The translations under genes and the position numbers were made by a program. A model generated the notes under the pieces. It saw only the letters and a list, made by a program, of their open reading frames with translations. It was not told where the DNA came from and ran no database searches. Below are positions 31,108 through 53,290 of a stretch of DNA of 64,000 bases, in pieces; within the stretch, counting starts at the first letter, position 1, and every line of letters starts with the position of its first letter. The DNA comes from Hydrogenophilales bacterium (GTDB lineage Bacteria > Pseudomonadota > Gammaproteobacteria > Burkholderiales > Thiobacillaceae): contig JACPYT010000011.1 of assembly GCA_016195805.1 (NCBI GenBank), positions 1 through 64,000 of the forward strand, written 5' to 3'.

Positions 31108-32031
31108 TCAGCCTGGCGCCCGGATACGCGGACGATCGGGGAAGATGAATCCCAGTACCCAGTCCAGCACAAACAGAAACAGCAGGGCGATAATGAACAG
31201 CATGATGCCGGCAAAACCGTGCAGGAATCCCTGTCCGGCCTCGTCACCCAGATGGTAGGTCACCAGCACCAGCACCATGACGCGAACGACGTTGGCGGCA
31301 AAGGCAATCGGCAGGATCGCTGCCATGATGATGAGGTTGCGCGCAACGCTGGTGCGCTGCATCAGATACAAATACAGCAGGCCCATGGCCGACAGGCTGA
31401 ACATAGAGTGCAGACCAGAACAGGCGTCGGCCACCAGTAGCTGGTAGGGCCCAACTGTGAGCGTGACTCCGCTGCGCGCAATGGGATAGCCCGCCGCATA
31501 GAGCACCTGTTCGGCGATGATCGAAATATATTGCTTGAGCGGACCAGTAGCGGCATCGACGACAAAGCCCGGCAATGGAACCATGAACACCAGGAAGAAC
31601 AGCGCAAACCACAAGGCACGTGCAGCCCGGGTACCCAGCGTAATGAGTAGCACCCCCAGGATGACCGGAATCTGCGAGCCGATCTCGAATATCAGAATGT
31701 CCTGCGAGCGACCCAGTGCATAGATCAGCAAACCAATGACGAGCAGTGCCCAGCCGATTGCCACCTGTCCGCGCGTTGGCGGAACCTTGACATCGGCCAG
31801 GAAGATGGCCCGCTGCTGCCAGATCAGAAACAGGGAAACGACCAGCACGATGGGGCCGTGCGCCTGCTCTTCCGTGTTCCAGATTCCGTGCGCCAGCAAC
31901 CAGTAGGTAGGCACATACAGCACCAGCAGGCCGATCACCACCGGCCACCAGGTTTTGAGCGGGGCAAGCGCGTCGAGCACAGACGCGCGCGGGGCAAGCG
32001 TATTCATTACGTCAGTCCAGGACGACAGCAC
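31108..32031 (-). CDS. xrtB: Exosortase B (PEP-CTERM protein sorting enzyme)
   Basis: Catalytic Cys in VADACSGLHSMFSL, Arg in NVVRVMVLVL, His in GFLHGFAGIMLF; polytopic; EpsI/EpsG/EpsF/EpsE neighbours. Start may be the internal ATG near 32007. Confidence 0.95.
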   Translation of the reverse strand: MLSSWTDVMNTLAPRASVLDALAPLKTWWPVVIGLLVLYVPTYWLLAHGIWNTEEQAHGPIVLVVSLFLIWQQRAIFLADVKVPPTRGQVAIGWALLVIGLLIYALGRSQDILIFEIGSQIPVILGVLLITLGTRAARALWFALFFLVFMVPLPGFVVDAATGPLKQYISIIAEQVLYAAGYPIARSGVTLTVGPYQLLVADACSGLHSMFSLSAMGLLYLYLMQRTSVARNLIIMAAILPIAFAANVVRVMVLVLVTYHLGDEAGQGFLHGFAGIMLFIIALLFLFVLDWVLGFIFPDRPRIRAPG

Positions 32032-32940: not shown

Positions 32941-34329
32941 TCAGGCCATTGCCGGACGATCGCGGCGGAAAAAACGGCGCATGGCCTCCAAGCGGCGCCC
33001 TTTTTTCGTGACCTCGGCCAGCACCGGGATATCCAGTCCGGTGGCGATGTCCAGCCCTGAACGCACCCGCCGATCCAGTAGTTCAACCAGGATGCCAGAA
33101 CCGACGCCTAACAACGTGCCCGCAAACAGCGAGAGCAACACGTTCAGGATTACACGTGGCTTGGAGGGCTCGGTAGGCGCAACAGCTGGACTCAGCACGG
33201 CAACATCGGTTTGCGTGGACTGGGCTTCCATGCGGCTCTGACCATAGCGCTGCAGGGCGGAATCATAGATCTTCTGAGCGTTATCCAGATCGCGCGCCAG
33301 CAGGCTGACTTCCTCGCGTTGCTGCTTGAGTGCCAGAACGCTGGCCTTTTGCTTGGCGAATGCCGTACTCAATTCGTCGTAACGCTGGCGTGCCGCCCCA
33401 GCTGTTGCTCCCACGCCGCGCGTCGCCAGGTTGAGTTCGTTGGCGAGCCGGGCCTTGTAGCTATTCACTTCGGCCAAGGTGCGCTGGTAATCGGGATGAT
33501 TCACGCCCACGCGCTTGGCCAGGTCGGCCAGCTTGCCTTCGCCCTGCGACACCTGGGCCTTCAGATTTTGCACCACGGGATTGCTGATCACTTCTGGCAT
33601 GCTGCTGCTGTCTCGGGTGCGGGAACCGGCATCAAAAGCCGCCGACTGCGCGGCCACCATCTGGCTGGCCAGATCAGCCATGCGACGGGTCTCAACATCC
33701 AGACGTTCATCAGATTCGACTATGCCTTTTTCACGCTGGTACGCAGTGAGCTTTTGTTGCGCATCATCGACATTCTGACGCAGTTGGATGATCTGTTGAT
33801 CAAACCAGGCAGCAGTCTGCCTGGCTGACGCCAGGTGCAGATCGACACTGGTTTCTATGTAGTACTTCGCAAAGGCGTTGGCCATCGCCGCCGAGAATTG
33901 CGGATTGGCTCCGGTGAATGCGACGGTGATCACGCTGGATTCGCGTGAAGGCTCCACGTCGAGTTTCTTCAGCAACAAGTTGCCCAACCACTGGTCGATC
34001 GTCCCCTTGCCTTTGGTCGCTGACATGAACTGCTCGCGCGTTTCCGGGCTATCCGCCAGTTTCAGTTCTCTCACCACCTTTTGCGCGACATTCGCGCTTT
34101 TGATGACATCAACCTGGGTCGCCATGTAGTCAGGGAACATCTGTGACGGCAACAGTTGGCCGGTAAACGGATCCTTGCTCTTGGAGTCAATGACCAGCGT
34201 GGCTGCCGCCGTGTATTCCTTCGGAAGCAGCAGGCTCACCACTGCAGTGACGATTACGGTAAACAGCAGCACGCCGAAGATAATTCTCTTGCGAGCATTC
34301 AGAATCAGCAGAAGTTGGGTGAAGTTCAT
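32941..34329 (-). CDS. epsF: EpsF-type chain length determinant (Wzz/PCP family)
   Basis: N-terminal FTQLLLILNARKRIIFGVLLFTVIVTAVVSLLLPKEYTAAATLVID; coiled-coil; C-terminal PxxPxxPRVxLNVLLSLFAGTLLGVG. Confidence 0.92.
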   Translation of the reverse strand: MNFTQLLLILNARKRIIFGVLLFTVIVTAVVSLLLPKEYTAAATLVIDSKSKDPFTGQLLPSQMFPDYMATQVDVIKSANVAQKVVRELKLADSPETREQFMSATKGKGTIDQWLGNLLLKKLDVEPSRESSVITVAFTGANPQFSAAMANAFAKYYIETSVDLHLASARQTAAWFDQQIIQLRQNVDDAQQKLTAYQREKGIVESDERLDVETRRMADLASQMVAAQSAAFDAGSRTRDSSSMPEVISNPVVQNLKAQVSQGEGKLADLAKRVGVNHPDYQRTLAEVNSYKARLANELNLATRGVGATAGAARQRYDELSTAFAKQKASVLALKQQREEVSLLARDLDNAQKIYDSALQRYGQSRMEAQSTQTDVAVLSPAVAPTEPSKPRVILNVLLSLFAGTLLGVGSGILVELLDRRVRSGLDIATGLDIPVLAEVTKKGRRLEAMRRFFRRDRPAMA

Positions 34330-34339
34330 TGTGGATCCC

Positions 34340-35134
34340 TTAGAACAGGCTTTCCTTGACGTAGATCACGTCGTCCTTTTGGACCGGATCGCCCAGCTGC
34401 GCGGGCAATTCCTGCATCGTTCCCTTGGCATCGCGGCGCAGAATCTTGATGCCGCGCTGAGTACCGCGCGTGGTGAGCCCGCCGCCCAGCGACAGCGCCT
34501 GGACCACGCTCATGTTCTGCTCCAACCGGAACGCGCCGGGACGTTGCACTTCGCCATAGATGTAGAACATCGGTTGGCGCGCCACATTGATGATGTCACC
34601 GTCCCGGATTAGTTCGTTGCTGGCTTCACCGCCCGGCTTGAATAGCGCAACCAGGTCGATGTCGCGGTATTCGGTCTTGCCATCGTGCGTGCGCACCAAC
34701 GTAACGGTGTCGGCACCGTCAATGATGACGCCACCTGCCAACGCCAATGCGTCGGTCACACGGCCCATTTTTTCCAACGCGTATTTGCCGGGGCGATTGA
34801 CCCGGCCCAGCACCGAAACCTCCTGGCCACGGTATTGCATCACGTTGAGCGTAACGAATGGATTAACGATGAACCCCCCTTTGCTCAGGCGCTGCGCAAT
34901 TTCCGACTCGCCCTGTGCCGGGGAGCTCCCAGCCAATTTGACATCACCGATCAGGGGAAAGTTGATGGTGCCATTTTCGCTCACGCGTACATCGGTGGTG
35001 AGGTCGGGCTGCCCATACACGGTGATGCGCACCACGTCACCGGTGCCTAGTTGGTAATCGTTATCCGCACTCCATGCGGGCGCCGCAAGCAGCAAGACGC
35101 ACACCATCCATATACTTTGCCACAACCTGATCAT
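34340..35134 (-). CDS. epsE: EpsE-type polysaccharide export outer membrane protein (Wza-like)
   Basis: YQLGTGDVVRITVYGQPDLTTDVRVSENGTINFPLIGDVKLAG; SLBB-like repeats. Confidence 0.93.
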   Translation of the reverse strand: MIRLWQSIWMVCVLLLAAPAWSADNDYQLGTGDVVRITVYGQPDLTTDVRVSENGTINFPLIGDVKLAGSSPAQGESEIAQRLSKGGFIVNPFVTLNVMQYRGQEVSVLGRVNRPGKYALEKMGRVTDALALAGGVIIDGADTVTLVRTHDGKTEYRDIDLVALFKPGGEASNELIRDGDIINVARQPMFYIYGEVQRPGAFRLEQNMSVVQALSLGGGLTTRGTQRGIKILRRDAKGTMQELPAQLGDPVQKDDVIYVKESLF

Positions 35135-35394
35135 TGCTCTCTCCTATTGGCAGCAGCCAGAATTGCCACTGCCCTCCTGCTTGAATTATTTTCCTTGCCT
35201 ACACTCAGTGCCACGCGATTGCCACGTAGGTCACGCCCAGCTTGCCTGGTATTCACCGCACGCCCTGCAGTCCGTCTGGCCAGCGAATCGGCTGGCGGCC
35301 ATTCTAACCTTGTCCATGGTTGAAATCGCCCACGCGACCCCAGGCCTGTCTGGAATGCAAAACGCGTACCCGCATCCTCCACGACCCAGGAGCA

Positions 35395-36699
35395 CTAGAA
35401 ATCGGCCCTGACGTTGGCATACACCATGTGAAACCTGTAGTCCTCGACAGCTATGTTGGAATCCCGACGGCCTGCGCTTACGCCGACATCCACCGTTACC
35501 GCCCGAATCGGCAGATAGCTGACCGACAGCGTGGTGCTCAAGGTATCGTCATTACGTTGCAATTGTGTTGTCCCGGGATCGCCTTTGAAAAAACGATTTT
35601 CGAAAGTCGCCCCGGCATTCAGGCGCCATTTCTCGCGCATCAGCCACACGCCGTTTACGCTCACGCCTTTTTTCAGCACCGAACTGGCATTGATATCCTG
35701 CGCGCCGCCTAGTTCCTGATAGGCCAACACGTTCAGCAGCGTTTTGCCAGTGGGGAACCAATCCGCCGAAATCCGCCCCGCAAAGCCGCTTGAATTAGGG
35801 CGATCCTTGAGTTGGGGAGGAAAAAACGGATTGAAATTACCTTGCAGAACGTTCTCGTATTGACGGTCCACCCAACCGGCCTGCCCGTGCAGCGTCAGCT
35901 TGCCCGACACGAGCCAGTCGCCCAGCAGGTTGTATTCGGTTTGCTTGTAGCTGTTGTCCACCACCTCGGATGGAACAACGGGAAAAGGCGGGCAAAAAAC
36001 AAAAAAAGAGCAAGTCGAAGCCAGAACTTGCGGGTTGGGATAGTTGGCATCGGTCCTGCGTACCTGCGCACGCAGGCTGCTGCCCTTGGGCAGGTAATAG
36101 CCGAAGACGACATCTTTCACCAGTTGCTGGACATCCTGCGAAATGAGCGATGATGCGCCGTTGGAATAGTCTGACGCCTCGACGCCCCCGCCTATCCGCC
36201 AGCGCGGATGAAACTCCCATTCGGCCCGGCCAAAGCGGCGTTTCTGCGTCACAAGGTTATTGAGCTGCCCGACGGCAGCAAAATTGCTCTGGCTGAGTGT
36301 TTCGGTCGCCCCTAGATTGCCGCTCAGCCTGTTGCCCAAACGCCAGTTCCAGATGGCTTGATAATCGCTTCCATCGGAATCGAAGCGTATGTTGCGGTCA
36401 TAGCGAACCTGGGTTTTAACCACCTTTACGACGATTTCCTGGCGTCCCGGTTTCCAGTCCACGTTCAGCCCTGCGCTCAGAATGCTGTAGCGGTCGTCGC
36501 GCTGGGTGCCCGGGCTTGCGTTGTCGGCCAGACGGAACAGGTTACTGTCGAAATAGGTCCCGTAGGACACGAACGGGCGGAAGGTATCGCCTTCATGTGC
36601 CCAAGCTGGCAAGGCGAGCACGGCTCCCAACAGGGCTACAAATCCAGCGTGTATTGTTTTGATGCCCACTCGTGCGAAACCGACCAATCCAAAACCCAT
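35395..36699 (-). CDS. epsL: EpsL-type EPS biosynthesis outer membrane beta-barrel protein
   Basis: Signal peptide; FRPFVSYGTYFDSNLFRLADNA...RYSILSAGLNVDWKPGRQEIVV; position in xrtB/eps cluster. Start set at MGFGLVGF (ORF track extends through REP repeats). Confidence 0.85.
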   Translation of the reverse strand: MGFGLVGFARVGIKTIHAGFVALLGAVLALPAWAHEGDTFRPFVSYGTYFDSNLFRLADNASPGTQRDDRYSILSAGLNVDWKPGRQEIVVKVVKTQVRYDRNIRFDSDGSDYQAIWNWRLGNRLSGNLGATETLSQSNFAAVGQLNNLVTQKRRFGRAEWEFHPRWRIGGGVEASDYSNGASSLISQDVQQLVKDVVFGYYLPKGSSLRAQVRRTDANYPNPQVLASTCSFFVFCPPFPVVPSEVVDNSYKQTEYNLLGDWLVSGKLTLHGQAGWVDRQYENVLQGNFNPFFPPQLKDRPNSSGFAGRISADWFPTGKTLLNVLAYQELGGAQDINASSVLKKGVSVNGVWLMREKWRLNAGATFENRFFKGDPGTTQLQRNDDTLSTTLSVSYLPIRAVTVDVGVSAGRRDSNIAVEDYRFHMVYANVRADF

Positions 36700-36724
36700 T
36701 CGCCCTGCGCCGCCCTGTCCCAAT

Positions 36725-36806
36725 CCCGTTCGCCCTGAGCTTGTCGAAGGGCAAATAGTCAGGGACGTAACATGCTCATGGCCTTCGAAAGGCTCAGGCC
36801 GAACGG
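36725..36806. repeat. Inverted pair of REP-like elements
   Basis: 36725-36752 cccgttcgccctgagcttgtcgaagggc and 36781-36806 gccttcgaaaggctcaggccgaacggc; same family as 8829-9045. Confidence 0.85.
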
Positions 36807-36860
36807 CAGTGGACTTGCCACACTGCCCGCCCGCCAGGCCTTTATACATCGCAGCCCGCC

Positions 36861-37520
36861 TCACCAGAAACTCCAGTGGCCCGTGGTTACCACATACGCA
36901 CCCAGCGCACCGTTGGTGACGCCATGCGCAATGACCGGCGCCCACAGGTTGCGCGTGCGGATATACAGCCAACCATACGCCAGACCTGCAACCAGCCCGG
37001 CCAGCCACTGCAGGTGCTCGACGGCAAACAGCGCGCTGGCGATGAGCAACGCCCTGAAGCCGATCTGTGCCGGATCCAGCGCCAGGAAATCGGTCTGCTG
37101 CACCCAGCGCTGCAGGAACGAGCGCCAGAACAGTTCCTCCATTACCGGCACCACCAGCGCCGCACCGGCGATGCGGAACGCCACCAGCACCCAGTCGATG
37201 CGGCCGGTTTCATCGGTGGGGTTGTAACCCTTGCCCGCTTCGCCCACCAGCATCCAGGCGGCGTCGAGGTTGACCCACAGCGCCAGCACAATCAAGCCGA
37301 CCGCCAGCGCCAGCAGCAGATGCTTCAGCGGCAGGCCATACGATTTGAGCTCGGTGTAATGGCGCCACAGCACCGCCAGCGCCAGCGCGACCAGACCGGC
37401 CTTCACCGGGTACAGCCAGCGCACGTCGAAGCCGGGCGCCCAGCCGGGCAGCAGGCCTTCCAGCGCAAGCAGGGCGATATACAGCCCGAACGGCAGGCTG
37501 CGAACGAATATGGGAGACAT
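36861..37520 (-). CDS. CAAX prenyl protease-related (CPBP family) membrane protein of PEP-CTERM loci
   Basis: VMEELFWRSFLQRWVQ (EExxxR), ALFAVEHLQWLAGLVAGLAYGWLYIRTRNLWAPVIAHGVTN. Confidence 0.88.
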   Translation of the reverse strand: MSPIFVRSLPFGLYIALLALEGLLPGWAPGFDVRWLYPVKAGLVALALAVLWRHYTELKSYGLPLKHLLLALAVGLIVLALWVNLDAAWMLVGEAGKGYNPTDETGRIDWVLVAFRIAGAALVVPVMEELFWRSFLQRWVQQTDFLALDPAQIGFRALLIASALFAVEHLQWLAGLVAGLAYGWLYIRTRNLWAPVIAHGVTNGALGAYVVTTGHWSFW

Positions 37521-37560
37521 ATCGAAACCGGCGCGGCTTGTCGCCGCGCCGGTCAGACCA

Positions 37561-38526
37561 TCACTTCAGACCGGAAACGCCCTTGCTGATCGCATCGGCG
37601 TCAGCAGCGGGGGCAGCAGGCGCGGCGGCGGCGGGTTGCTCGACGGGGGCTGCCGCTTCCTTGCCGGCATCGGCAAACTCGCCCACGTATTCGATCTTGG
37701 CTGCAGCCTTCAGCTTATCGAGTTCGGCCTTGGCTGCTTTCTGCCGCGCCTCGTTTTGCAACAGGCGCGCGATCGCCGGCTTGGCCTGCTCCAGCGTCAC
37801 CGGCTGCACCTGGGAATCAGCCAGCACAATCACCAACAGCCCTTCAGGCGTATTCACGATCATCGCCTGGCCATCGGGCATTTCAGCCAGCTTGGGCAGG
37901 ATCGCTTGCGGCAGCTGCTCGGCGGGCTTCACGCCCTGCGAGGCCTGGACCGGGTATTTCTCGGCTTTCAGCCACACCCCAAAGTCGTTCAGCGTTTTTG
38001 AGTCGGCCAGCTGTTTGCGGATCGCCTCCTGTTTCTCCTTGGGCGCCTTGATCGCGATTTCCTGCAGGCGATAGATCTTGCGCTTGGTGAACAACTCGGG
38101 GTGTTTGTTGAAGTAATCCGTCACCTCGGCATCGGTCGGCTCCGCCGAGGTACCCAGCTTGCGGCTCATGTAGGCCTCGGCCATGATCTGGCGACGTGCC
38201 GCATCCAGGGCCTGCACCACCGCGGGGTCGCGATCCAGCTTCTCGGACTGCGCCTTCTGCGCCAGTACTTCCTGGTCCACCAGATTGCGCACCACCTGCA
38301 GCGACGCCGCCTTGGACTGATCCTTGTCGAGATTGGGAATGCGCTGCAGCGCGAAGTTCACCTGCGACACCGTCAGTTCGGTGCCATTGACCTTGGCTGC
38401 CACCTGGGTGGGCTTTTTCTCTTCTGCGCTCCCGTCTTTCTTATCGCCGCAACCCGCAACAAGCGCAACAATCAACAATGGCAGGTACAGCTTTCTCAAA
38501 CCTTGCATGTCTGTCTTCCTCTTCAT
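37561..38526 (-). CDS. epsD: EpsD family peptidyl-prolyl cis-trans isomerase (lipoprotein)
   Basis: Lipobox LIVALVAGCGDKK; SurA/parvulin-like NFALQRIPNLDKDQSKAASLQVVRNLVDQEVLAQKA; ELFTKRKIYRLQEIAI. Confidence 0.88.
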   Translation of the reverse strand: MKRKTDMQGLRKLYLPLLIVALVAGCGDKKDGSAEEKKPTQVAAKVNGTELTVSQVNFALQRIPNLDKDQSKAASLQVVRNLVDQEVLAQKAQSEKLDRDPAVVQALDAARRQIMAEAYMSRKLGTSAEPTDAEVTDYFNKHPELFTKRKIYRLQEIAIKAPKEKQEAIRKQLADSKTLNDFGVWLKAEKYPVQASQGVKPAEQLPQAILPKLAEMPDGQAMIVNTPEGLLVIVLADSQVQPVTLEQAKPAIARLLQNEARQKAAKAELDKLKAAAKIEYVGEFADAGKEAAAPVEQPAAAAPAAPAADADAISKGVSGLK

Positions 38527-38735: not shown

Positions 38736-40742
38736 TCAGAACTTCACCACCACCCCTGCCGTAAGCAGATCGATATTGGTATAGGTGTCGTACCGCTCCC
38801 ATTCGGCACGCAAATTCACGTTACTCAGCATCGCGTAGCTGACCCCCACGCCATAGTAGGGATCGACCTGATTGGCGCCCACATGGATGATGGCCGCAGC
38901 TGCCGTACCTGAACCGGAGCCCTGCGTAGCGACATGGCTGTTCACGCTGGCTGCACCCGCTTTTGCCAGCAGCGAGAACTTGTCTGTCAGCGGCAGGGTA
39001 CCCACAGCGGCCAGCGTCCAGGCTTGTGTTGCGGGATTTGCACGAACCGTTCCAGCACTCGGCGCAGTAATCTCAGCATGCGCCGTCGCATCATTCAAGT
39101 TGGTGTAGCCGCCTTCAACGCCGAGATACTTGTTGAACTGATAGCCCGCATACACCTTCCAGCCCTCGCTGCGACTGCTCGATTTGGTCGTAGACGTGCC
39201 CCCCGTTGATGCAATCGTGGAATTCACATAAGAAGGATAGTCAACATAATTGGACTGCCCCACCCCCAAGCCTACATACCAGTTCGAGAAGTTGATGCCG
39301 GCCCAATCCGACTCGCCATATTCTTCCTCGGTATGGGGCCCCGGATCCAGCATCCAGCCCAGACTCAGCGCAAACATGTTTTGATGCATGTTGACACAAG
39401 CCGAACCAATGATGTTCTGGCGCGGCGGTGAGCACTGTGAATGGGACGCCGCGTAGAGATAAGCACCGGTGATCTCCAATTGATCACTATGGCGATAGGT
39501 GAAACCGGCCGTGTAGTGACGCTCCACCACAGCAGGTGCCAGCGTATTGAAAGTCAACTGATCATTCGGAATCGGGCTCGCCCCGTAGTTGTAACCCGCT
39601 CGCACCTGCAGTTTGTTGTTCACGCCATACTGCACGCCAAGTTTGTATACGGTCTGGTTTTTCCAGCCAAATCCCATGCCCTGGTCGTTCCCCAGTTCGT
39701 AGGTGGCGTTCGGGATGGAAATCACTCCGGCTAACTGATTGGCCAGGGCCCCTGCGCTAGCGCCATTATAAAGGGCGGGCGCGGCCGCGGAACTACCCGG
39801 CCCTCGATTGCCGATCGAGGCGATGTCAGCATAATTGATGCGCATCACGTCAGTCGATATGACCAAGTTTTTCTTCGGCTTGAAGGTAATGCCCACGCCA
39901 TAGTTCTCTGGAATGTCGAAGCCCCCTTGCTCGGCGAACAGACCTCGGTACTTGTCGAGCTTGGTCATATAGGTCCTGGACGTGTAGGCTAGGCCAAGCG
40001 TCAATCTGTCGTCGAGGAAGCTCCCCAACCAGCCCACCTTGACACCCGCCCCATAGCTATAGTCGAAGCCCTGCCCCGTCAGGTGATTGGGGTCTGCCGA
40101 GATCGTGAAGCCCGCCGTATCAAACCCCTGGAACGCTTCCAGCCCATAGGCGCGAAAGCGGGTTTCCGCCAGCTGCAGCGCCGCACCAAATGAATGCTGC
40201 TCGTTGACCTTGTAGCCCACGGTGATCGGCACCAACAATTGCATCATGTCCACACCAAGCTTGCTGTCCTTCGCGGGCTGACCCTGATAAGAAAAGAAGT
40301 TAACCGGGTAGGTCGTGTTCATCCCACCGTTGCCGACGAAGGCGATGCCTACATGCAGGTTTTCAGTAAGCGGCATTGTCATGCCCATTTCGGGCATGAT
40401 GAAGTACTTTGCGTCGCTTTCTGAAGCGCTGTTAAAAGTGAAGGCGGCCTGCGCGAGCGTTCCATTTGGATTTCTCACCCCGGAAGACGATCCAACAGCA
40501 GCATAGCGCTCTGGATTGAACACCCCAAAACCGAGATCGCCACGCATGCCGGTTTGCGTGACATTGGCTGGGTTGGAGGCGATAGACAGCGAATCGCGTC
40601 CATACGCGATACCTACGCCGCCCATGCCTTGCGAACGAAACCCATATCCCGGCAAAAAATAGCCGTTGGTGGCGTGAGCTGGCACATGCGCCAGAACCAA
40701 GGACGCAGCTAGCGCCTTTAAAGCAAATTTATTACACTTCAT
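38736..40742 (-). CDS. OmpP1/FadL-type outer membrane transporter fused to a C-terminal OmpA-like beta-barrel
   Basis: N-terminal THATNGYFLPGYGFRSQGMGGVGIAYGRDSLSIASNPA (FadL/OmpP1); first barrel appears to end QNMFALSLGWML; second unit NWYVGLGVGQSNY...GWKVYAGYQFNKYLGVEGGYTNL...LRAEWERYDTYTNIDLLTAGVVVKF. Confidence 0.85.
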   Translation of the reverse strand: MKCNKFALKALAASLVLAHVPAHATNGYFLPGYGFRSQGMGGVGIAYGRDSLSIASNPANVTQTGMRGDLGFGVFNPERYAAVGSSSGVRNPNGTLAQAAFTFNSASESDAKYFIMPEMGMTMPLTENLHVGIAFVGNGGMNTTYPVNFFSYQGQPAKDSKLGVDMMQLLVPITVGYKVNEQHSFGAALQLAETRFRAYGLEAFQGFDTAGFTISADPNHLTGQGFDYSYGAGVKVGWLGSFLDDRLTLGLAYTSRTYMTKLDKYRGLFAEQGGFDIPENYGVGITFKPKKNLVISTDVMRINYADIASIGNRGPGSSAAAPALYNGASAGALANQLAGVISIPNATYELGNDQGMGFGWKNQTVYKLGVQYGVNNKLQVRAGYNYGASPIPNDQLTFNTLAPAVVERHYTAGFTYRHSDQLEITGAYLYAASHSQCSPPRQNIIGSACVNMHQNMFALSLGWMLDPGPHTEEEYGESDWAGINFSNWYVGLGVGQSNYVDYPSYVNSTIASTGGTSTTKSSSRSEGWKVYAGYQFNKYLGVEGGYTNLNDATAHAEITAPSAGTVRANPATQAWTLAAVGTLPLTDKFSLLAKAGAASVNSHVATQGSGSGTAAAAIIHVGANQVDPYYGVGVSYAMLSNVNLRAEWERYDTYTNIDLLTAGVVVKF

Positions 40743-43703: not shown

Positions 43704-44453
43704 TTAGATTGCATTCTTGCGGCGGCGGACAGCAAAGCCCACCAGACCCAAGCCAGCCAGCATCATGCCGTAGGTCGACGCTTCCGGTACAGGCGCCGCA
43801 GCATTCACGACACCTTCCAAGTGCAGCGCGTACTTCACGTTGGGGAAAGCAGGCGAGGTGGACGGCACCGCTGCATGGTAGTCCAATTTGTAGGTGTGGC
43901 CGTACACGCCATCCCAAACCAGATTGGCCACACCGCTCGTATAACCGGTGCCCCAAGCGTTGCCGCCCATGTCGATGCTGGAAACGTTGTTCCATGCCAC
44001 ATGCCAGCCGCTGAGGTTGATCGTGGTGTTGGTGCCGGTAATTGCAACCGTGCTGAAGTTGGTGCCGGTGTTGCTGAAGAAGCCCCATGAGTCAACGATG
44101 GGGCCACCTGCGCCAACCGAGCCCAAGCCAGCGCCCCAAGGGCCAGGGGTGGACGTGTTCGCACCAATCACGATGCCCGGGGAATTCACTGCGGACAAAG
44201 CGGTCTTTTCCGTTCCTTGAATCGCATTGTCACCATTAGTATCCATGCCGAACCAGGAACCCGGATTGACGTTGGTCTGGGTGGTCACAGACGGGCTCGA
44301 TGGCGTGCCCGCACCAGTGGTCGAAAAGACCGGCACGCCGGTGTTGATGGTCAGCGTATCGCCGCTGTTCAGGCTGAAAGCGTGAGCGCTCATCGCGCCC
44401 ATGATGCCGACGCTGCCGATGGCCAGGGCAAACATTGTTTTTGTGAAGTTCAT
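43704..44453 (-). CDS. PEP-CTERM sorting domain-containing protein
   Basis: Signal peptide MNFTKTMFALAIGSVGIMGAMSAHA; C-terminus APVPEASTYGMMLAGLGLVGFAVRRRKNAI. Confidence 0.95.
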   Translation of the reverse strand: MNFTKTMFALAIGSVGIMGAMSAHAFSLNSGDTLTINTGVPVFSTTGAGTPSSPSVTTQTNVNPGSWFGMDTNGDNAIQGTEKTALSAVNSPGIVIGANTSTPGPWGAGLGSVGAGGPIVDSWGFFSNTGTNFSTVAITGTNTTINLSGWHVAWNNVSSIDMGGNAWGTGYTSGVANLVWDGVYGHTYKLDYHAAVPSTSPAFPNVKYALHLEGVVNAAAPVPEASTYGMMLAGLGLVGFAVRRRKNAI

Positions 44454-44564
44454 CTTGTATATCTCCTCATGTAGAAAGTATCGATCGATCAAACAGCTAC
44501 ATCCTCCTGCCACACGGTGCACTACTCTTGCACCGAATAAACCCTTTCGCGGCGTCTCTTACTT

Positions 44565-45210: not shown

Positions 45211-46596
45211 TTAGTAGGCGTTCTGGTCGCGCCAGACGACGGCGAGGGTCTTGCCGATGATCATGAGGTCGAACACCAGCGACCAGTTGCGCATGTAGTC
45301 GATGTCGTACTGGACGCGGGCGCGCATCTTGTCGAGGGTTTCGGTTTCGCCACGCAGGCCGTTGACCTGCGCCCAGCCGGTGATGCCGGGCTTGACCTTG
45401 TGGCGCAGCATGTAGCCCTTGATGAGCTTGCGGTACTGCTCGTTGTGGGCGACTGCATGGGGGCGCGGGCCGACGACGCTCATGCGGCCCTGCAGGACGT
45501 TGATGAACTGCGGCAGTTCATCCAGAGACGTCCGGCGGATGAAGGCGCCGAAGCGGGTGATGCGGGGGTCGCTACGGCCGGCCTGCTTGATGGTATCGCC
45601 ATCATCACAGACCTTCATGGAGCGGAATTTGTAGACGAGGATTTCCTGGCCGTCAAGGCCGTAGCGACGCTGCTTGAAGATGATGGGGCCGGGCGAGGAC
45701 AGTTTGACCCCGACAGCCAGGATCAGCAGCACGGGCCAGATCAGCAGCAGAATAAAACCGGCGATGACGACGTCGCTGATGCGCTTGCCGATGCCGCTGA
45801 CGCCGAGGGTGGGCGATTCGGTCAGCGCCACCACTGGCATGCCATGGATGTGGTCGACCCGCGCCTGGATGAGGTCGGAGACGAAGATGTCAGGGACGAA
45901 ATAGACTGAGGTGGTGGTATCGCGCAGGGCATCGAGCAGGTTGAGGGTGCGCGGCTGCGAGGCCATCGGCAGGGTGATGTAGACGAGGTCGATGCCGTTG
46001 CGGTTGACGTATTCGGGGATGTCGGCCAGCCGTCCGAGCAGCTTTTTCGGGTCGGTGAGTTCGGTGCGTTCGAGCGCGCGGTCGTCGAAAAAGCCGACCA
46101 CATCCACGCCCAGTGCGCTGTCACCGGTGAAGCGCCCGCGCAATTCGGTGCCCAGATGGCCGGCACCGACGATGAGGGCGCGCCGGCGTCCGCCTTCCAG
46201 CAGGAGCAGGCGCGGCAGGATCTTGCGCACGACGCGGTGCGCCCCCCACATGGCGACGGGGGTGGCGAGCATCCACGCCATCACCAGCTTGGGCGGAAAC
46301 CAGTCGAGATAGCCGGTGGAATAGCCGAACAGCAGGATCAGACCGGACAAAAAGAACCACGGCATGACGACTTCGTTCCAGAAGGCGCGCAGGGTGACTT
46401 CGGGCCATTTGCCGGGAAAGGTCAGGGTGAATACGATCAGGGCCAGGATGGGGTACGGCCCGTTGAAAGTTTCGCCGAAATAGAGCGTGCAGCCGATCAG
46501 CACCAGCACGGCCACGAACGGGTCGAGCAGGATCTTGGTCAGCGATACGACGGAAAGCTGCTGCCGGAACAGCCACTGGTTATGGTTAGTCATCAC
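45211..46596 (-). CDS. Undecaprenyl-phosphate glucose phosphotransferase (EPS-initiating polyprenyl glycosylphosphotransferase)
   Basis: Four N-terminal TMs, Rossmann-like [18 protein letters not shown]-terminal [27 protein letters not shown]...[39 protein letters not shown]...[18 protein letters not shown]. Confidence 0.96.
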
Positions 46597-46846: not shown

Positions 46847-47652
46847 TCAAACAGTGGAACGTGCGTTGCGCCGCGCCATGAAACCGACGAGCGTAAGACC
46901 GGCCAGCATCATGGCGTAGGTTTGGGCTTCGGGGACCGCCAGCGCAATGTATCCATCGGCCGCATATTTGAGATCGCCCGGCGCCACAGTGTTACCCATC
47001 ACGCTGGTGATCGGGCCCAGCAAACTTGCGTCTAAAGGATTGTTCATGCGCAACGTGAATATTCCCCCCCCCCGCCCACGATCGTAGCAGGATTGTATAC
47101 GGCGGCATTGAAGCTTGTGACTTGAATCGTGATATCGGTTGCGCCAAAAGAGAAACTGGGGGAGGCCACCCCGCTTCCGGAAATGATATTGCCGCTCAGA
47201 ATCGAAACCCCATCGGTAAATCCGCTGTCCGCCCCAAAGTTGTGGTTGGTAGTGTTATCCACATAAATCGAGAAATTGCCGCCCGTGACACTGATTGCGC
47301 CTGCAGCAGTCACGCTCTCGGCAAAGCTGGCTACCGCGGTCAACTCATAGGTCGAATTGAGGCCGAGCGACGGAACCACGTTGCCCGCGAGTAGATGATT
47401 CGTGACGTAAGACTGATAAAAGCCGTTAAAGGTTGAAACCTGTGACGACCCCGATCCTGTCGTTCCTGTTGACTGCAGCAGCACGACCCCGGGGGCCGCA
47501 TCATAGGTATCGAACGTGCCAACGGTCCCAGTACCGGCCAAGGCCTGCGTATAATCCGCCGTTCCCGTCCAACCGGATGTCGCATGGGCCGCTTGCGCAG
47601 CAAAACCGGACGCGACCAATAGCGAGGCCAGCAAAACTTTCGTGTGCTTCAT
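46847..47652 (-). pseudogene. PEP-CTERM protein gene, frameshifted at a G10 tract (candidate phase-variable locus)
   Basis: N-terminal part (MKHTKVLLASLLVASGFAAQAAHA...IVGGGGEYSRCA*) and C-terminal part (...GYIALAVPEAQTYAMMLAGLTLVGFMARRNARSTV) are in different frames, joined at 47064-47073 (10 C on +). Confidence 0.88.
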
Positions 47653-47748: not shown

Positions 47749-47764
47749 TGCAAGATACGTGCCT
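47749..47764 (-). promoter_or_regulatory. Candidate sigma-54 (-24/-12) promoter of split PEP-CTERM gene
   Basis: Reverse strand AGGCACGTATCTTGCA; GG-N10-GC; ~97 nt upstream of the start codon at 47652. Confidence 0.7.
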
Positions 47765-47990: not shown

Positions 47991-48047
47991 AAATTCGCCA
48001 CGCAGATCTCATAGTCGAGTGGAAGGGACGCTTTGATTTTTGCTGAT
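47991..48047 (-). pseudogene. Short fossil duplicate of an internal segment of the PEP-CTERM gene 48230..48946
   Basis: aaattcgccacgcagatctcatagtcgagtggaagggacgctttgatttttgctgat aligns to 48498-48553 aaattcgccatgctggtcacatcggtgagtggcagggtcgccttgattttgctgat; encodes ISAKIKASLPLDYEICVANF vs AISKIKATLPLTDVTSMANF. Confidence 0.75.
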
Positions 48048-48229: not shown

Positions 48230-48946
48230 TTACATCTTGGCACGACGGCGCACGGCGACCCCCACCAGCCCCAGACCCGCCAACATCATGGCGTAGGTCG
48301 AGGGCTCAGGCACGGGCGCCATAACCACGTTCAAGCCAACGAATTTTTTCTCGATGAAGGCGGCACTGCCGGACGTCAGACTGCTGGCCAACAGGATGTT
48401 TTCGATGGTGACGTTGACGCCGCCAACGATGCCATCCGCCCCACCCCAGCCGGCCGGGATCGCGACGCCGGCAAGGGATGTCCAGTCGGTGGTCTCAAAA
48501 TTCGCCATGCTGGTCACATCGGTGAGTGGCAGGGTCGCCTTGATTTTGCTGATGGCAGCTGGCGCTAGCGGCGATTCGAGGTCACGCACGTAGAGTTTCC
48601 CGCCCACCGCCACACTGGCGCCGGCACCCATGTTGTAGTAATCGCCATTTTCGGTCAGGTTGACAGCCGACACCAGGTAGCCGGGATTGGCATTGACCAT
48701 GATGTTGAAGGTCTGGCTGGCCGACGCGAGTCCCGACCCATTGAAGGACTGCGCCTTGTAAGTGGTGGGCGTAAAATACAACGTGTCACCTATCACAGTG
48801 GGTGCGCCGAACAGCCCGCTGAGGGCGCTGTCGAACGTGAAGCTGGCCGTTGTGCCCGCCAAAGTGACGGTCGCCGCGAAAGCAGCTCCGGAAATGGTTT
48901 GGCCCAGCAAGAGAATGCCGACAGCCAGTTTGTTCATGCGTTTCAT
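48230..48946 (-). CDS. PEP-CTERM sorting domain-containing protein
   Basis: Signal peptide MKRMNKLAVGILLLGQTISGAAFA; C-terminus APVPEPSTYAMMLAGLGLVGVAVRRRAKM. Confidence 0.95.
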   Translation of the reverse strand: MKRMNKLAVGILLLGQTISGAAFAATVTLAGTTASFTFDSALSGLFGAPTVIGDTLYFTPTTYKAQSFNGSGLASASQTFNIMVNANPGYLVSAVNLTENGDYYNMGAGASVAVGGKLYVRDLESPLAPAAISKIKATLPLTDVTSMANFETTDWTSLAGVAIPAGWGGADGIVGGVNVTIENILLASSLTSGSAAFIEKKFVGLNVVMAPVPEPSTYAMMLAGLGLVGVAVRRRAKM

Positions 48947-49157
48947 GGATTGCTCCTTAAATCGTAGTTGGGGCCGAGGGAAACCCCCAGGCAATTCATC
49001 CAGGCTGTTATTTGCAAATGCGCCAGCCGTCATTAATCTAAGTAGTTCAGCCTTGCGGCTGCATCCTGTGTTCCCAATGACCAGGCGCAAACACGCCCGA
49101 TCCAACACGACTCAGCGCACGCCAGAGAGTTCTGCAAAAAACACGCAGCGCCAAACT

Positions 49158-53214: not shown

Positions 53215-53290
53215 TGGTGCCGCTTGTCGGAATCGAACTGACGACCTACCGCTTACAAGGCGGTTGCTCTACCAACTGAGCTAAAGCGGC
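53215..53290 (-). tRNA. tRNA-Thr (anticodon TGT), CCA encoded
   Basis: Reverse strand GCCGCTTTAGCTCAGTTGGTAGAGCAACCGCCTTGTAAGCGGTAGGTCGTCAGTTCGATTCCGACAAGCGGCACCA; anticodon loop CTTGTAA. Confidence 0.97.

Follow-up and report, generated by a model that had tools for sequence, protein, structure and literature searches.

Does a run of ten guanines that splits the frame of a secreted-protein gene mark a switch, a dying gene or an error in the data? This question is raised by a gene on the minus strand of contig JACPYT010000011.1 from a Hydrogenophilales bacterium (GCA_016195805.1), within the 64,000-nt stretch of DNA analysed here, referred to as the window. The strand reads GTG GGC GGG GGG GGG GAA TAT TCA CGT TGC GCA TGA, in which the run is exactly ten G long (G10, positions 47073–47064) and the stop codon lies at 47046–47044. 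The GTG near the run is an internal codon and not a start, as the gene begins with the ATG at 47652. The truncated frame (47044–47652) breaks after ~196 codons, 72% along the gene, and encodes a product of 202 amino acids that starts with a signal sequence and ends in GEYSRCA. The displaced 3' part (46847–47063, minus strand; IFTLRMNN...VPEAQTYAMMLAGLTLVGFMARRNARSTV) contains a PEP-CTERM sorting signal at 46868–46939 (Pfam PF07589, 30 bits, cut-off 20.7), out of frame with the rest of the gene. Tblastn searches with orthologues placed the switch between frames at the G10 run, and the gene contains no other stops or frameshifts. A preliminary description of this locus had proposed a secreted PEP-CTERM protein interrupted exactly at the homopolymer, and both parts of that proposal are borne out.

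The tract thus lies inside a gene and has lengths that shift the frame, as contingency genes do. The computed products of a G8 and a G11 allele are 267 and 268 amino acids long and both carry the PEP-CTERM tail, in agreement with the preliminary description. G9 and G12 lead into the third frame and give products of 219 and 220 amino acids with a nonsense tail. From G10, the ON state is restored by the gain of one G or the loss of two.

The truncated product matched the profile of the flocculation-associated PEP-CTERM protein PepA (NF033554) with 90.4 bits, above the curated cut-off of 80 bits, over residues 5–198 and profile positions 1–194 of 261, while the displaced part matched profile positions 202–260. 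As the product has neither a full-length domain nor an in-frame PEP-CTERM signal, the window gene is a broken member of the PepA family and not an intact one. Its syntenic orthologue in genome G005 scored 149.5 bits over the full length of the profile. The genome also encodes a second, intact PepA-family gene (contig 9, 82497–83294, 202 bits) that adjoins a TPR-repeat gene, which makes the window gene a paralogue rather than the sole PepA.

The window gene lies in an XrtB/PEP-CTERM exopolysaccharide locus, identified by exosortase B (XrtB, 31108–32031; TIGR03113, 422.8 bits, cut-off 275) and by EpsF, EpsE, EpsL and EpsD (32941–38526; TIGR03017, TIGR03028, TIGR03014 and TIGR02925), all on the minus strand and above the curated cut-offs. 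The next gene downstream encodes an intact WcaJ-type undecaprenyl-phosphate glucose phosphotransferase (45211–46596, minus strand; TIGR03023, 498.6 bits), and two neighbouring PEP-CTERM protein genes on the same strand (48230–49108 and 43704–44522) are intact as well. The window gene is likely a cargo of this locus. Gene order and neighbours are kept in G016, G005 and Thiobacillus thioparus DSM 505, and largely in G011. At 47991–48047, 57 nt with 81% identity to part of the neighbouring PEP-CTERM gene remain as a decayed copy, and no open gene surrounds them. Further along, a tRNA-Thr gene lies at 53215–53290, and at the matching place G016 carries an integrase gene whose start is closely preceded by a G10. 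Upstream of the window gene, a sigma54-like -24/-12 site, AGGCACGTATCTTGCA, is found at 47749–47764 on the minus strand, with one mismatch to TGGCACGNNNNTTGCW and its start 112 nt upstream of the ATG; three relatives have TGGTACGTATTTTGCG at -121. Sigma54 motifs occur at chance level across the whole window, without excess, and it is the conserved position in the relatives that points to a putative promoter.

Next, we focused on the site of the run in related genomes. Syntenic orthologues are full length and encode SGGG(I/V)FTL or TGGGIFTL at this site with mixed glycine codons, and more distant orthologues encode DAGGIFTL and similar motifs. No run of at least six was found at the site in syntenic or more distant orthologues apart from one relative, Sulfuriferula multivorans Bin2_2 (L053), which has an in-frame G8; the same motif is present in L162 from G066, the Sulfuriferula bin. 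This illustrates that the motif tends towards G-runs. As the syntenic orthologues lack a run, the tract does not qualify as a conserved contingency locus, nor is it retained in relatives beyond codon need, a feature that supports contingency genes rather than strictly defining them. A G8 in the window gene would be the exact ancestral length.

Sequence searches recovered the orthologue from only 7 of 60 relatives, the nearest with 68% protein identity. Among the 31 PepA-family members above the cut-off in 57 Thiobacillus-group genomes, the window gene is the only one that is cut short. The displaced 3' part is 83–87% identical to orthologues and under purifying selection: dN/dS against relatives is ~0.16 beyond the break and ~0.26–0.29 before it, figures that leave out the row of L051, where the start codon was mistaken. 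This suggests that translation of the tail continued until recently or goes on in some cells, so that the break is recent or reversible, or else that it is unreal and stems from the assembly.

The tract by itself is unremarkable. It is the sole G/C run of at least eight in the window, where a first-order model predicts ~0.19 runs of at least ten. The genome (2.96 Mb) contains three G10 runs, none longer, and some twenty runs of at least eight, numbers that are close to those predicted from the decay of run length and provide no evidence for a switch-rich genome. The unusual feature is the position of the run, which breaks a gene that is conserved in relatives. A codon test of each frame showed one and the same frame on both sides of the vast majority of G8–G10 runs in coding sequence, including those in a bamB-like gene (G10), hisB, pheS and a DegP-like gene. 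There were two clear exceptions, the PepA-family gene in the window and, on contig 14, a gene for a TonB-dependent receptor. The latter is shifted by one frame at a G8 close to its 3' end (40228–40235; L105 ~4229), where orthologues keep the canonical C-terminus (QNLGG..EFR..DW, last residue W). Another G10 is intergenic, between divergent genes for ferritin/Dps-like and sensor-like proteins (contig 3, 43569–43578). Separately, long poly-G matches run into the dozens or hundreds in several drafts (G005, G017, G068, G069 and others); these are probably sequencing artefacts.

We consider it about an even bet (probability roughly 0.5) that the window gene is a real, slippage-generated and potentially reversible OFF allele, a reading drawn from sequence comparison that we favour over a length error, a pseudogene and slippage during gene expression. 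At the conserved glycine-rich site, drift has left almost only GGG codons, creating a mononucleotide run. Slipped-strand mispairing may then have extended this run to ten, a length at which it would be hypermutable; homopolymers of at least eight in Neisseria are mostly variable within cultures (PMC5084427). The sequenced cells would hold a recent OFF allele, and further slippage by +1 or -2 G would turn the gene ON again. The exact break at G10, the full-length orthologues, the ancestral length of G8, the low dN/dS of the 3' part and the status of the gene as the sole truncated family member all fit this reading. Three observations count against it. Syntenic orthologues do not share the tract. 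It also lies late in the gene, while genic poly(A)/(T) tracts favour 5' ends (PMC2831843), a bias that was reported for A/T and not for G. Finally, the frame shift at the G8 of the TonB-dependent receptor gene would fit two slippage events or a tendency to homopolymer errors.

The preliminary description regarded an assembly error as the main alternative, and it still is, although we think it rather doubtful. The true gene would then be an intact G8 or G11, reported with the wrong length through a sequencing or assembly error or as the consensus of a mixed population. Several sequencing platforms are prone to errors at homopolymers of ten, and the 3' part is conserved. The TonB-dependent receptor adds a second conserved gene that is off by one, and as judged from the sequences, slippage in the cell and homopolymer bias in the data would explain two frame-broken surface-protein genes at G-runs equally well. 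However, the assembly is 99.85% complete in 18 contigs, and most genic runs of eight to ten G are single-framed. When orthologues from three relatives were translated for the stretch from 31 to 53 kb, about a dozen genes, the only true frame change was that in the G10 gene, other apparent changes being read as antisense shadows or as overlapping or adjacent genes. Together with the in-frame G10 of the bamB-like gene, these clean neighbours indicate that homopolymers are not a general weakness of the assembly. They argue against an indel-ridden assembly, but are compatible with an error at this single long run.

The intact PepA-family gene on contig 9 and the presence of an orthologue in so few relatives would also suit a plain pseudogene, in which a dispensable paralogue recently acquired a one-way frameshift and reversion is biologically irrelevant. 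The decayed fragment just upstream of the window gene illustrates that PEP-CTERM genes do decay at this locus. However, the 3' part is undecayed, with no stop or frameshift beyond G10, and the run stays mutable whatever its history, which leads us to regard a pseudogene as unlikely. Much less probable still is that ribosomal -1 or transcriptional slippage on the run yields some full-length protein from the G10 allele, so that both forms coexist. The C-terminal frame is indeed the one reached by a -1 slip, but the run is not conserved in orthologues and the folding energy of the downstream sequence equals that of shuffled sequences (z = -0.03). Lacking the signal of a stimulatory structure, programmed frameshifting was rejected.

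If the OFF allele is real, its effect would probably be the loss of one extracellular-matrix protein and not the release of a working soluble form. In an orthologue whose structure was modelled with a mean pLDDT of 80.7, the lost part comprises beta-strands at residues 196–204 and 230–241 and a C-terminal helix. The truncation would thus take away the final two beta-strands predicted for the conserved PepA domain along with the tail, which makes loss of function likelier than release, and a working soluble form is unlikely. Comparison with the PDB by fold (best E 0.056) and by sequence gave no significant matches. In Aquincola, the only case in which pepA has been shown to act in floc formation, overexpression of pepA rescued the flocs of an rpoN1 mutant through exopolysaccharide binding; pepA mutants were not recovered in the screen, and the authors suppose that the trait at least partly persists without pepA (PMC9850573). 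With an intact second copy in the genome, the phenotype of the OFF state may be mild. Of the toggling between sorted and released forms envisaged in the preliminary description, reversibility is plausible and the released form unlikely; likewise, an ON/OFF switch of surface sorting would have to be narrowed to one cargo at most, as it leaves the sorting machinery untouched and an intact PepA-family gene elsewhere.

Whether the tract has been selected as a switch is a further step. We think it improbable, though worth stating, that a free-living chemolithotroph here has a selected poly-G switch for the phase variation of a matrix protein sorted by an exosortase. The tract might then belong to a set of several mutable G tracts near exopolysaccharide loci in Thiobacillus. 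In G011, a single-contig genome, a phosphodiesterase-like gene changes frame at a G11 ~4.5 kb from xrtB (contig 1, 1888545; L121 ~1746). In G027, a gene for a LuxR-type (EpsA-like) regulator is preceded at ~90 nt by a G12 (contig 149, 5214–5225; L107 1215–1226) that lies 3 kb from the pepA orthologue. These two cases, noted post hoc, are suggestive of G tracts that touch exopolysaccharide genes. In a post hoc, genus-wide tally made by hand that excludes the genome of the window, five of some 50 tracts of at least ten G lay within ~25 kb of xrtA, xrtB or pepA, against ~1–2 expected. As the tally is post hoc and only one of the five tracts was seen to break a gene, we do not claim an enrichment. 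Should the window tract switch, a PEP-CTERM cargo would be a new target of poly-G switching. Our search of the open-access literature found no paper on phase variation together with floc formation, and by title and abstract, none on PEP-CTERM proteins with phase variation or homopolymers is presented as switching of this kind. If the tract switches, clonal populations of an environmental sulfur oxidiser would be mixed with respect to one matrix protein, which some cells have and others lack, and would offer an uncomplicated system in which to test bet-hedging in aggregation beyond pathogens.

That surface genes can switch by frameshifts at poly-G tracts is textbook knowledge. Like the contingency loci of Neisseria and Campylobacter, the window gene codes for a secreted surface protein and has a G10 within its frame, where a single slip would make it intact. 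Unlike those loci, its tract is not conserved and lies late in the gene, it is known from one assembled sequence, the genome is not rich in long G tracts and there is no known driving host. The locus around it resembles a methanolan-type Eps locus with exosortase B, as XrtB, EpsD, EpsE, EpsF and EpsL are all encoded in the window. These machinery genes showed neither a tract nor a frame break, and one putative cargo is the only gene affected. The closest known protein is PepA of Aquincola tertiaricarbonis RN12 (NF033554; PMC9850573). The window gene differs from PepA in that it scores below the contig 9 copy, sits in the XrtB locus and is frame-broken, and it is the contig 9 copy that adjoins a TPR-repeat gene as Aquincola pepA adjoins prsT. 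It shares with PepA a family score above the cut-off, a signal sequence and, in its displaced frame, the PEP-CTERM signal, and just as Aquincola pepA is RpoN-dependent, the window gene lies behind a sigma54-like promoter site.
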